Below are positions 5,535-8,357 of a stretch of DNA of 39,557 nucleotides, piece after piece (positions within the stretch are counted from its first letter, which is position 1; the number at the start of each line of letters is the position of its first letter). This DNA comes from Bacteroidales bacterium. GTDB taxonomy: Bacteria; Bacteroidota; Bacteroidia; Bacteroidales; GWA2-32-17. The stretch covers positions 1 through 39,557 of the forward strand of contig JABUFC010000033.1 of NCBI GenBank assembly GCA_013314715.1, written 5' to 3'. Position numbers and translations under genes: made by a program. Below the pieces are notes generated by a model. The model was not told where the DNA came from, did not search any database, and saw only the letters and a list, made by a program, of their open reading frames with translations.

Positions 5535-7331
5535 ATGTCATCTAAAGAGAAGTGGGGAACGCGGGTAGGACTTGTATTAGCCATGGCAGGTAATGCTGTG
5601 GGATTAGGCAACTTCCTGCGTTTTCCCGTTCAAGCGGTTCAAAATGGTGGTGGTGCCTTTATGATACCTTACTTTGTATCATTCTTACTTTTAGGTATTC
5701 CACTATTATGGGTAGAATGGTCTATTGGTAAGTATGGAGGCATGTTTGGCAAACACAGCACTCCTTTTATGTTTCATAACATGAATAAAAAATGGTTATG
5801 GAAGTATGTTGGTGTTTTTGGAATTTTTACTAACCTTGCCATAGCTTCGTACTATTCTTATATTGAAAGCTGGACTATTTCGTATGTATATCATAGCATA
5901 GCTGGAACATTTTCGTCCATGAATCAACACGAAGTGGCAAGCTTTTTTAGCAATTACCTCAATGTATCATCCGCAACAACCGGCATTCCATATGAGTCGC
6001 TTTTCTTCTTTTTAATTTGCCTCAGCATCAATGTATGGATACTTAGCAAAGGGTTAAGCGAAGGAATCGAAAAAGCATCGAAAATCGGTATTCCACTGCT
6101 TATCTTATTTGGTATTTTCTTGGCAATCAAAGCATTAACATTAAAAGCAGGTCATGAAGGTGCGATAAACGATGGAATAGTGGGCTTAAACTTTTTATGG
6201 ACACCTCATTTCGACTCTTTAGCCAATCCTAAGGTTTGGCTTGCTGCTGCAGGACAAATATTCTTTACCCTTTCGGTAGGAATGGGTTCTATTCAGTGTT
6301 ATGCTTCATATTTGCGAGAAAAAGACGACGTAGCACTAAACGGTATGGCAGCAGGGTGGACCAACGAATTTATTGAAGTTATTATTGGTAGTTCTATCAT
6401 AATTCCCATTGCTATAGGTTATTTTGGAATAGATAAAGTTGTGGATTTAGTTCAATTAGGCGGATTAGGATTGGGCTTTAAAACGATGCCATACCTTTTT
6501 GCACAATGGGGACCTGTATTAGCAGCATTAGCCGGCACTGCTTTCTTTGGTTTGCTATTCTTTGCTGGCATTACTTCAGCCCTTGCCATGGGACAGCCGG
6601 TAATGGCATTTTTGCAAGACGAATTTGCATGGACACGAAAAAAGTCGGCTTTGGCCTTTGGCTTAGCAACATTAACGCTCGCTTTGCCCACCATTTTCTT
6701 TTTTGAATATGGAGTTTTTGATGAATACGACTATTGGGCTGGTACTGTAACACTCGTAGTATTTGCTATGCTCGAAGTTATTTTGTTTAGTTGGGTATTT
6801 GGACTAAATAAAGGCTGGAAAATTTTAACCACAGGTGCCGAAATTAAAGTTCCTTCCATTTATCGTTTTATATTAAAATTTGTAACTCCTGTTATTCTTA
6901 TTCTTGTGTTTTTAGGGGCACTCATCAGACCTACAAACGATGATTGGAGTACATTATTCACTTCAAAATATGAATTACACGAAGAATCGATATTAGGCAA
7001 AATTCTCAACAAAAGCATTCGATACAATAAAGAATATTTTGCTAATGCTTATTATGCAGAGTGGGATGGCACTATTACCAAGATAAACTCCAACGAAATA
7101 ACCGTTACCGACACGCAAGGGAATAACCACTCTGTAGAGCTTTCTGGAAAAGACAAACCGATAGTACAAATCAATCAGCCTATTAAAGCTGGCGATCCTT
7201 TGTATCAAGGATTTGTGGTAAATCATATCCTCTGGATAACCCTTTCGCGATTATTATTGGTTACAATCTTTTTACTTATTGCATGGTTGGTGCATAAAGC
7301 TTATAAAAAACAAAAACAAACCCTATTATGA
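5535..7331 (+). CDS. NSS/SNF-family sodium-dependent transporter
   Basis: This 598-residue membrane protein of the neurotransmitter:sodium symporter (LeuT-fold) family couples Na+ entry to uptake of an amino acid or similar substrate. The N-terminal motif GNAVGLGNFLRFP (helix 1, sodium and substrate site) is clear, and about 12 hydrophobic segments follow. Between the penultimate and last helices (residues about 465-563) there is an extra hydrophilic stretch of about 99 residues, predicted to face the periplasm. Part of it (GTITKINSNEITVTDTQGNN ...) alternates like a small beta domain. The gene lies 10 bases after the aldolase. Its TGA stop overlaps the ATG of a small MetS-like subunit in an ATGA, so the two are translationally coupled. 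The substrate cannot be read from sequence; methionine or alanine are possible by analogy with MetPS. Confidence 0.92.
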   Translation: MSSKEKWGTRVGLVLAMAGNAVGLGNFLRFPVQAVQNGGGAFMIPYFVSFLLLGIPLLWVEWSIGKYGGMFGKHSTPFMFHNMNKKWLWKYVGVFGIFTNLAIASYYSYIESWTISYVYHSIAGTFSSMNQHEVASFFSNYLNVSSATTGIPYESLFFFLICLSINVWILSKGLSEGIEKASKIGIPLLILFGIFLAIKALTLKAGHEGAINDGIVGLNFLWTPHFDSLANPKVWLAAAGQIFFTLSVGMGSIQCYASYLREKDDVALNGMAAGWTNEFIEVIIGSSIIIPIAIGYFGIDKVVDLVQLGGLGLGFKTMPYLFAQWGPVLAALAGTAFFGLLFFAGITSALAMGQPVMAFLQDEFAWTRKKSALAFGLATLTLALPTIFFFEYGVFDEYDYWAGTVTLVVFAMLEVILFSWVFGLNKGWKILTTGAEIKVPSIYRFILKFVTPVILILVFLGALIRPTNDDWSTLFTSKYELHEESILGKILNKSIRYNKEYFANAYYAEWDGTITKINSNEITVTDTQGNNHSVELSGKDKPIVQINQPIKAGDPLYQGFVVNHILWITLSRLLLVTIFLLIAWLVHKAYKKQKQTLL

Positions 7332-7459
7332 CAACGGAAGCACTAATTTTTATGCTGGTTTCTGAAGGCATTATTGCAGTTGTAACTATTTACTTTTTTA
7401 TAAAAGTATTACGCTCAAAAAAAGAATTTAATCAAGACGACTCTTCTAACGATGCTTAG
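7328..7459 (+). CDS. MetS-like small subunit of the NSS transporter (43 aa)
   Basis: This very short gene overlaps the transporter stop codon by four bases (ATGA) and the next gene's start by eight. The 43-residue product has one transmembrane helix (about residues 5-28, LIFMLVSEGIIAVVTIYFF) and a charged cytoplasmic tail rich in Lys, Asp and Asn (SKKEFNQDD). This is the pattern of the MetS family, the small subunit required alongside the NSS methionine transporter MetP in Corynebacterium. The tight overlap with an NSS gene is the main support. The codons are clean and the frame ends at TAG. What it does here (assembly, stability or transport activity of the large subunit) is inferred. It is easily missed by gene callers. 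Confidence 0.78.
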   Translation: MTTEALIFMLVSEGIIAVVTIYFFIKVLRSKKEFNQDDSSNDA

Positions 7460-8357
7460 GTCCTACTTTCAGTTTACACGAAAAGAACGAAACGGAATTC
7501 TTTTTTTATTTATCATAATTGCATTGGTGTGGTTTGCTTACGCTTCGTTAGATTATTTCTTCAAGCCTAATATACACGACTATAGCCAATTTGAGAAACA
7601 AATAGATACGTTTTATGCATCTATTGAAGATAATCCGGCTAAGATAAAAAATACCCCACAAGACACCTTAGCATATAACCGCGATACCTGTTTTGTAGAT
7701 ATTAACCACCCACAAATAGAACATTTACGATGTCTTGGCATAAAAGAACATCTGGCAAAAACTTGGATAAATTACACTCAGAAAGGTGGCAAATTTAAAA
7801 CAATCGATGGATTAAAGAAATTATGGGGCATGAACGACAGTATTTTCAACGCCATTGCTCCATATTTAATGCTTAACACCAATGATACCCCAACAAACCT
7901 AAAAAACTATTCAAAATCAAACGATACTCCTCCATATTTAAAAAAAGCAGAAAAAAAGATTGAAATGGTTGAATTAAATACGGCTGACACAAATCAGTTA
8001 ATAGCATTACCGGGGATTGGAAACTCTTTTGCATCGCGTATTATAAAGTATCGCAACCGATTAGGCGGATTTTACAACAAAGAACAATTGAAAGAAATTT
8101 ATGGCTTTAATCAAGAGCTTTACGAAAAAATAAGTCCTTATATATACGTAGATGTATTTGAAATTAAAAAAGTAAACATCAATACAGGCGATTATTCTAC
8201 CTTGATTCAAAATCCCTATTTTACAAAAGAAGCTGTCAAAGCCATTCTACAATACCGAAAAAAAACGGGCAAAATAAACAATGCAGATGATTTATTGATT
8301 CATCAGATTGTATCTGAAGACGAATGGAATAAATTAAAATGGTACGTAGCGTTTTAG
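7452..8357 (+). CDS. Membrane-anchored helix-hairpin-helix (ComEA-like) protein
   Basis: The 301 residues begin with a short basic cytoplasmic end and one transmembrane helix (about 14-37), followed by three helix-hairpin-helix modules at about 82-140, 173-233 and 241-301. The middle one has the canonical VELNTADTNQLIALPGIG ... Arg-Ile-x-x-(Y/F)-R motif. The outer two are degenerate: in the third, the hairpin Gly-Ile-Gly is replaced by NPYF. Tandem HhH domains bind the DNA backbone without sequence specificity; ComEA uses one to capture DNA during natural transformation. Its start overlaps the MetS-like gene by eight bases, so it is the last gene of the aldolase-transporter unit. A DNA-uptake role is an inference. 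Structural use of HhH folds without DNA is also possible. Confidence 0.8.
   Translation: MLRSYFQFTRKERNGILFLFIIIALVWFAYASLDYFFKPNIHDYSQFEKQIDTFYASIEDNPAKIKNTPQDTLAYNRDTCFVDINHPQIEHLRCLGIKEHLAKTWINYTQKGGKFKTIDGLKKLWGMNDSIFNAIAPYLMLNTNDTPTNLKNYSKSNDTPPYLKKAEKKIEMVELNTADTNQLIALPGIGNSFASRIIKYRNRLGGFYNKEQLKEIYGFNQELYEKISPYIYVDVFEIKKVNINTGDYSTLIQNPYFTKEAVKAILQYRKKTGKINNADDLLIHQIVSEDEWNKLKWYVAF

Follow-up and report, generated by a model that had tools for sequence, protein, structure and literature searches.

Our comparative analysis suggests that a 43-codon reading frame overlapping the 3' end of an NSS transporter gene encodes a dedicated small putative subunit of a LeuT-type Na+/amino-acid symporter, an assignment that we consider likely. 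The small protein accompanies LeuT-type NSS transporters and none of the other sampled NSS classes, and it is kept where the two genes lie apart. In our best reading it is a MetS-like putative subunit specific to the LeuT branch; we infer that it docks on the transporter and assists its assembly or gating. The window, by which we mean the whole 39,557-nucleotide contig of a Bacteroidales bacterium that was analysed, contains the following features:

5535-7331, plus strand: LeuT-type NSS transporter of 598 aa (PF00209 at 183.6 bits; LeuT at 402 bits with 44% identity)
6921-7238, plus strand: transporter insert that separates TM11 from TM12 (residues 463-568), a predicted beta domain
7239-7331, plus strand: TM12 and basic C-terminal tail of the transporter, placed by the LeuT alignment to the model of a homologue (L049)
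7328-7331, plus strand: ATGA overlap of the small ORF start with the transporter stop (36 of 115 adjacent pairs share the -4 offset)
7328-7459, plus strand: small one-helix protein, putative subunit of the LeuT-type transporter (selection, synteny, co-occurrence)
7340-7411, plus strand: predicted TM helix of the small protein, approximately residues 5-28 (hydropathy; conserved A5, M9, F23 and F24)
7412-7456, plus strand: charged C-terminal tail, predicted to be cytoplasmic (K/R bias; EPDS[YF] absent here)
7452-8357, plus strand: ComEA-type helix-hairpin-helix protein of 301 aa (PF12836), a neighbour and not a part of the transporter

The small ORF (7328-7459, plus strand) runs from an ATG to a TAG and encodes 43 amino acids; it overlaps the transporter stop, and its last 8 bases (7452-7459) are common to the following ORF (7452-8357), exactly as the earlier note on this DNA had described. 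The small frame is a real gene under purifying selection: against its two nearest relatives, compared over 32 codons, pN is 0.089 and 0.074 and pS is 0.766 and 0.880. Across all 3,081 pairs of the 79 rows in the family alignment the mean pN is 0.36 and the mean pS 0.76, with pN below pS in each of the 296 pairs for which pS is under 0.6. In our first set of loci the frame is kept beside 90 of 90 rows of long-form NSS, a figure that comprises 88 rows found by pattern and two (L008 and L037) assigned by eye, with several genomes counted twice. In 80 loci picked solely for the similarity of their transporter, each of the 79 scored LeuT-type genes is followed by a hydrophobic ORF of 28-75 aa; the base-rate control from the same loci, other ORFs of at least 200 aa, gives 17 of 221. 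The length of just 43 codons would suit a chance open frame between two genes; the conservation beside LeuT-type genes, the selection, the base-rate control and the co-occurrence across genomes described below all count against this, and we rule it out, its probability being negligible.

The earlier note had likened the small protein to MetS of MetPS; by sequence comparison, the large partner in the window is a LeuT-type NSS and not a MetP-type one. Its score for the NSS/SNF domain PF00209 lies far above the cut-off of 27, and the match to LeuT from Aquifex aeolicus (PDB 2a65) covers residues 4-459, with the 44% identity extending over TM1-11; the match to MhsT is 161 bits. In an AlphaFold2 model of a read-through fusion from a relative (L049; pTM 0.75) the fold is shared with LeuT up to and including TM12, as LeuT chains align with Z-scores of 30.9-32.4 over 452-476 residues, and model residues 600-610 correspond to LeuT residues 506-516 at the end of the alignment. 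The small part of this fusion is modelled as a helix (residues 622-648; block pLDDT 74-86).

The insert between TM11 and TM12 is around 106 residues long and no Pfam family matched it. Modelled alone it forms a beta domain with a mean pLDDT of 84.6, and its best structural matches, among the 50 listed, align 57-66 residues at Z 8.5-10.1 with a segment of the RNA polymerase beta subunit that we take to be a barrel-sandwich fold; the insert is thus a predicted beta domain resembling that fold. From the LeuT topology, the loop that carries it presumably lies outside the membrane. Transporters of the Pontibacter type lack most of the insert yet have the small protein, so the two are independent.

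We built three profiles of the small protein, A1 from 79 rows, A3 from 12 more distant rows and a merged one, A6; the A3 rows match the A1 rows with a profile probability of 98.0%. A match at E < 1e-3 follows 115 of 120 distinct LeuT-type NSS genes, a count that is partly circular since many of these loci, although selected by their transporter only, had supplied profile rows; six loci without a readable NSS (L002-L004 and L181-L183) were left out. The conservation of the short frame in relatives, which the earlier note had set as a test, is seen in the window's relatives, for instance beside these 115 loci. The five loci without a downstream gene (L138, L139, L146, L206 and L211) each belong to a genome with a copy elsewhere: in one (G132) it lies directly upstream of the transporter, and in the other four it is on another contig, away from the transporter. 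One record in the collection (JACSSC010000020.1, L071) is titled Candidatus Competibacteraceae; the phylum sample drawn for its genome repeats that of the window, as expected for a member of the same phylum. Where the single copy of a genome is not adjacent to the transporter, its neighbour in three of the four genomes (L244, L289 and L290) is a phosphofructokinase-like ORF; the Pfam PFK test covered that of L289.

By comparison, the small protein was found after none of 20 short NSS genes (443-475 aa); these proteins end where TM11 of LeuT ends, which implies that they have 11 helices. A pattern match beside one short NSS (L034) was discarded as false on the profile result of 0/20 for this class.

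Within the 115 adjacent pairs, the start of the match ranges from 17 nt ahead of the transporter stop to 284 nt beyond it; the genes overlap in 46 pairs, 36 of them at the -4 offset of the ATGA type, and the rest are 1 to 284 nt apart. The overlap had been read in the earlier note as a sign of a fixed ratio of large to small subunit, and this is not supported, given that fewer than half of the pairs overlap (46/115), that the others are separated by 1-284 nt, and that the small gene is upstream in one genome and non-adjacent in 4/39. The same observations bear on whether the frame might serve as a leader or translational coupling element for the downstream gene, with a protein product of little importance. 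The overlaps at both ends in the window, and a ComEA-like match that starts no more than 700 nt from where the small ORF ends, at 53 of 79 related loci, are what such an element might look like; its amino-acid sequence is conserved with low pN/pS, however, its spacing varies from -17 to +284, and copies lie upstream of the NSS in one genome and apart from it in 4/39 genomes. We rejected a leader or coupling peptide on account of the non-adjacent copies, which favour a partner protein, and regard it as very improbable.

To quantify co-occurrence we surveyed 296 genomes drawn evenly from the window's phylum, calling LeuT-type NSS at E <= 1e-60. LeuT-type NSS were found in 39 of these genomes, and A6 matches all 39 (E 1.5e-17 to 2.7e-8), a presence that is partly circular because some A6 rows, including the four non-adjacent ones, come from surveyed genomes; the absence in the other 257 genomes is not circular. 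None of those 257, which lack a LeuT-type NSS, has an A6 match below E 3.9e-5; seven give weak matches (E 3.9e-5 to 0.009), which cover only part of the profile and four of which lie inside frames of more than 200 codons. In 35 of the 39 genomes no more than 900 nt separate the small gene from the transporter match, the small gene being upstream in one of them; in the other four it is on another contig. A survey of 198 genomes with A1 alone agrees: of the 29 genomes that have a LeuT-type NSS 20 gave a match, and of the 169 that lack one a single genome did (E 0.0046).

Seven extra copies of the small protein, spread over six genomes, are not directly flanked by an NSS, so other partners are possible. 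One of these genomes (G513) has a LeuT-type NSS about 3.4 kb away, and the frame of another (G277) was not recovered by our ORF scan. At L281 (5204-5335, minus strand) the extra copy has an NhaA-type antiporter (PF06965) on one side and an SDF symporter (PF00375) on the other, and at L287 (2240-2353, plus strand) it is downstream of a CPA2-like antiporter (PF00999 and TrkA_N). These seven copies away from LeuT-type NSS, and the two neighbourhoods with the NhaA-type, SDF and CPA2-like genes, could be taken to mean that the protein serves several Na+-coupled transporters as a helper or regulator, LeuT-type NSS being only the commonest of its partners. Just two such neighbourhoods were seen, however, the 257 genomes without a LeuT-type NSS yield no copy below E 3.9e-5, and copies are absent without LeuT-type NSS although 54 of the 198 genomes in the phylum sample have MetP-like NSS; we find a general helper improbable, and prefer a partner dedicated to LeuT-type NSS.

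The claim that the frame encodes one transmembrane helix and a charged tail is borne out: the protein has a single hydrophobic stretch, with its best 19-residue Kyte-Doolittle mean (2.33) starting from residue 7, and a charged tail follows. In all 79 aligned rows (the window protein and 78 relatives) K/R are more numerous in residues 26-37 than in residues 2-5, and this surplus after the helix predicts an N-out/C-in topology. A5, M9, F23 and F24 are kept in at least 90% of rows, and a mid-helix position carries Q or E in 42 of 79 rows; the conservation of these residues suggests that they form a packing face of the helix. In the predicted cytoplasmic tail, 59 of the 79 A1 rows carry an EPDS[YF] motif, which acidic residues often follow; the motif is absent from the window protein and its two nearest relatives and has been lost in the window's own clade. 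A search of solved structures with the profile of the small protein gave no matching chain at E <= 10.

MetS, from the methionine/alanine importer MetPS of Corynebacterium glutamicum, has one helix in an N-out/C-in arrangement, and the 2008 study of MetPS reportedly found that MetP requires MetS. MetPS is described as a two-subunit NSS (PMC3219685). The earlier note had called the small protein MetS-like, and its central proposal, that a small one-helix protein belongs with an NSS transporter, is supported. The likeness to MetS holds for size, gene position, predicted topology and profile similarity; it does not extend to the curated models, as the window protein scores 15.9 bits against NF033493 (MetS), under the curated cut-off of 25, and has no match to PF16951 (the Pfam MetS family) at E <= 10. 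Likewise, none of 21 near genomes exceeds the NF033493 cut-off, which is passed in the positive controls C. glutamicum, M. jannaschii and M. acetivorans. Among the 79 relatives, 16 match NF033493 at E <= 10 (best E 0.0011; we take all 16 to be below the cut-off), and 7 of 33 relatives match it at E 0.0078 or worse; PF16951 matches 1 of the 79 (E 0.037).

When the new family was aligned in hhalign with A2, a set of MetS-type rows found with NF033493 and taken to come from the window's phylum, the match had a probability of 94.9% over 34 gapless columns, although an alignment that spans a single helix is limited evidence. None of 100 column shuffles did as well, their maximum score being 22.0 against the 35.1 observed. 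With the new profile, 2 of 11 MetS-type loci pass E < 1e-3. The distant A3 rows match MetS at 39.9% only, and the WGG core of the MetS rows is absent from the new-family consensus. The high hhalign probability with A2, set against scores under the curated cut-offs, indicates that the small family is probably homologous to MetS, as far as profiles can tell, and not a member of it by the curated models.

Shared features are thus a short one-helix protein, a gene beside an NSS, a similar N-terminal pattern and a gapless profile match; the differences are a LeuT-type rather than a MetP-type partner, an EPDS[YF] tail in 59/79 rows and the missing WGG core. One could go further and consider the small protein a divergent MetS of the same family and function that happens to have a LeuT-type partner, so that only the range of the system would be new. 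This would account for the gapless 34-column match far above its shuffles and for the two MetS-type loci under E 1e-3. We think it doubtful, given that the window protein falls under the NF033493 and PF16951 cut-offs, that the NF033493 matches of the relatives are weak (16/79 at E >= 0.0011, 7/33 at E >= 0.0078), that the new consensus has no WGG core, that distant rows reach only 39.9%, and that LeuT-type and MetP-like NSS are separate clades with their own small protein each.

MetS-type proteins themselves were found in 14 of the 198 genomes, five of them over the NF033493 cut-off, and NSS genes for proteins of 487-496 aa lie beside 11 of the 14 loci. Plasmid records yielded no annotated MetS. 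In five genomes (G277, G320, G332, G382 and G410) a separate pair of MetS-type and MetP-like genes exists alongside the LeuT-type pair. A transporter search for MetP-like NSS returned 58 matches in 54/198 genomes, of which 30 loci were read. MetS is present at all 12 MetP-like loci whose identity to the query is 58% or more, a count that is largely circular, as 11 of these loci had already been found via MetS. A sister group to this MetS-bearing clade, clade 2 (L226-L243; 494-525 aa, thus longer than the short NSS; 48-50% identity to the query), has a small hydrophobic ORF at none of its 18 loci. We therefore rejected a rule by which NSS with 12 helices have a small subunit and those with 11 do not, the helix number of clade 2 being itself deduced; the two sister clades form a natural pair in which to study gain or loss of the need for a subunit.

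We propose that the helix of the small protein, with its N-terminus outside and its charged tail inside, would pack against the 12-helix transporter and may aid its folding, assembly or conformational passage, much as MetP reportedly needs MetS. Purified LeuT transports alanine in liposomes without a small protein (PMC10945697), and this makes a stabilizing or regulatory subunit likelier than one that is part of the transport path; a role in assembly, stability or rate is accordingly the one we favor. Mutual information over the 115 pairs (mean of the top ten 0.287, against 0.236 under local re-pairing with a standard deviation of 0.008 in 12 trials) still includes shared ancestry, and its top pairs are scattered over the transporter with no clear docking face. 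Electrostatic pairing of the two tails was considered and rejected, their charges being uncorrelated (r = 0.08, n = 79). Ancillary proteins of SLC6 members offer a further comparison, by analogy only: ACE2/collectrin differs from the small protein in being an animal protein with a large extracellular part. B0AT1 (SLC6A19) and SIT1 (SLC6A20) depend on ACE2 or collectrin for membrane trafficking (PMC10491607).

The position of LeuT itself was assessed in a midpoint-rooted tree of 90 NSS sequences, 40 in the LeuT-type clade, 20 short and 30 MetP-like, built from 15 random near relatives and all distant LeuT-type sequences with only the columns present in LeuT. LeuT and the window transporter both fall in the LeuT-type clade (support 0.967), apart from the short and MetP-like sequences. 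Inside it LeuT groups with 22 other sequences (support 0.986 for these 23, and 0.944 for the next inner group, of 21), a placement that may change with wider sampling as the tree, LeuT aside, represents one phylum. All 22 group mates have the small gene in some form, 17 with an adjacent gene and five with a copy elsewhere or upstream in the genome. No small partner of LeuT turned up in the literature listings that we searched, and a word search of two LeuT papers (PMC10945697, PMC7260283) finds no 'subunit'.

Taken together, these observations raise the prospect that LeuT itself may be part of a two-part system. We advance as plausible, and tentatively, that the LeuT branch was ancestrally two-subunit, and that LeuT of Aquifex aeolicus keeps an unannotated one-helix partner or had an ancestor with one. 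LeuT is the reference structure for the serotonin, dopamine and GABA transporters, and if this proposal is true, two decades of LeuT structures and kinetics would have been measured on the large subunit alone. Across the sampled phylum the small protein goes together with LeuT-type transporters, and the family libraries miss it; these systems have therefore perhaps been studied incomplete. A second NSS branch would join MetPS in having a small subunit, and the finding suggests a division of the NSS family into branches with and without a one-helix partner.
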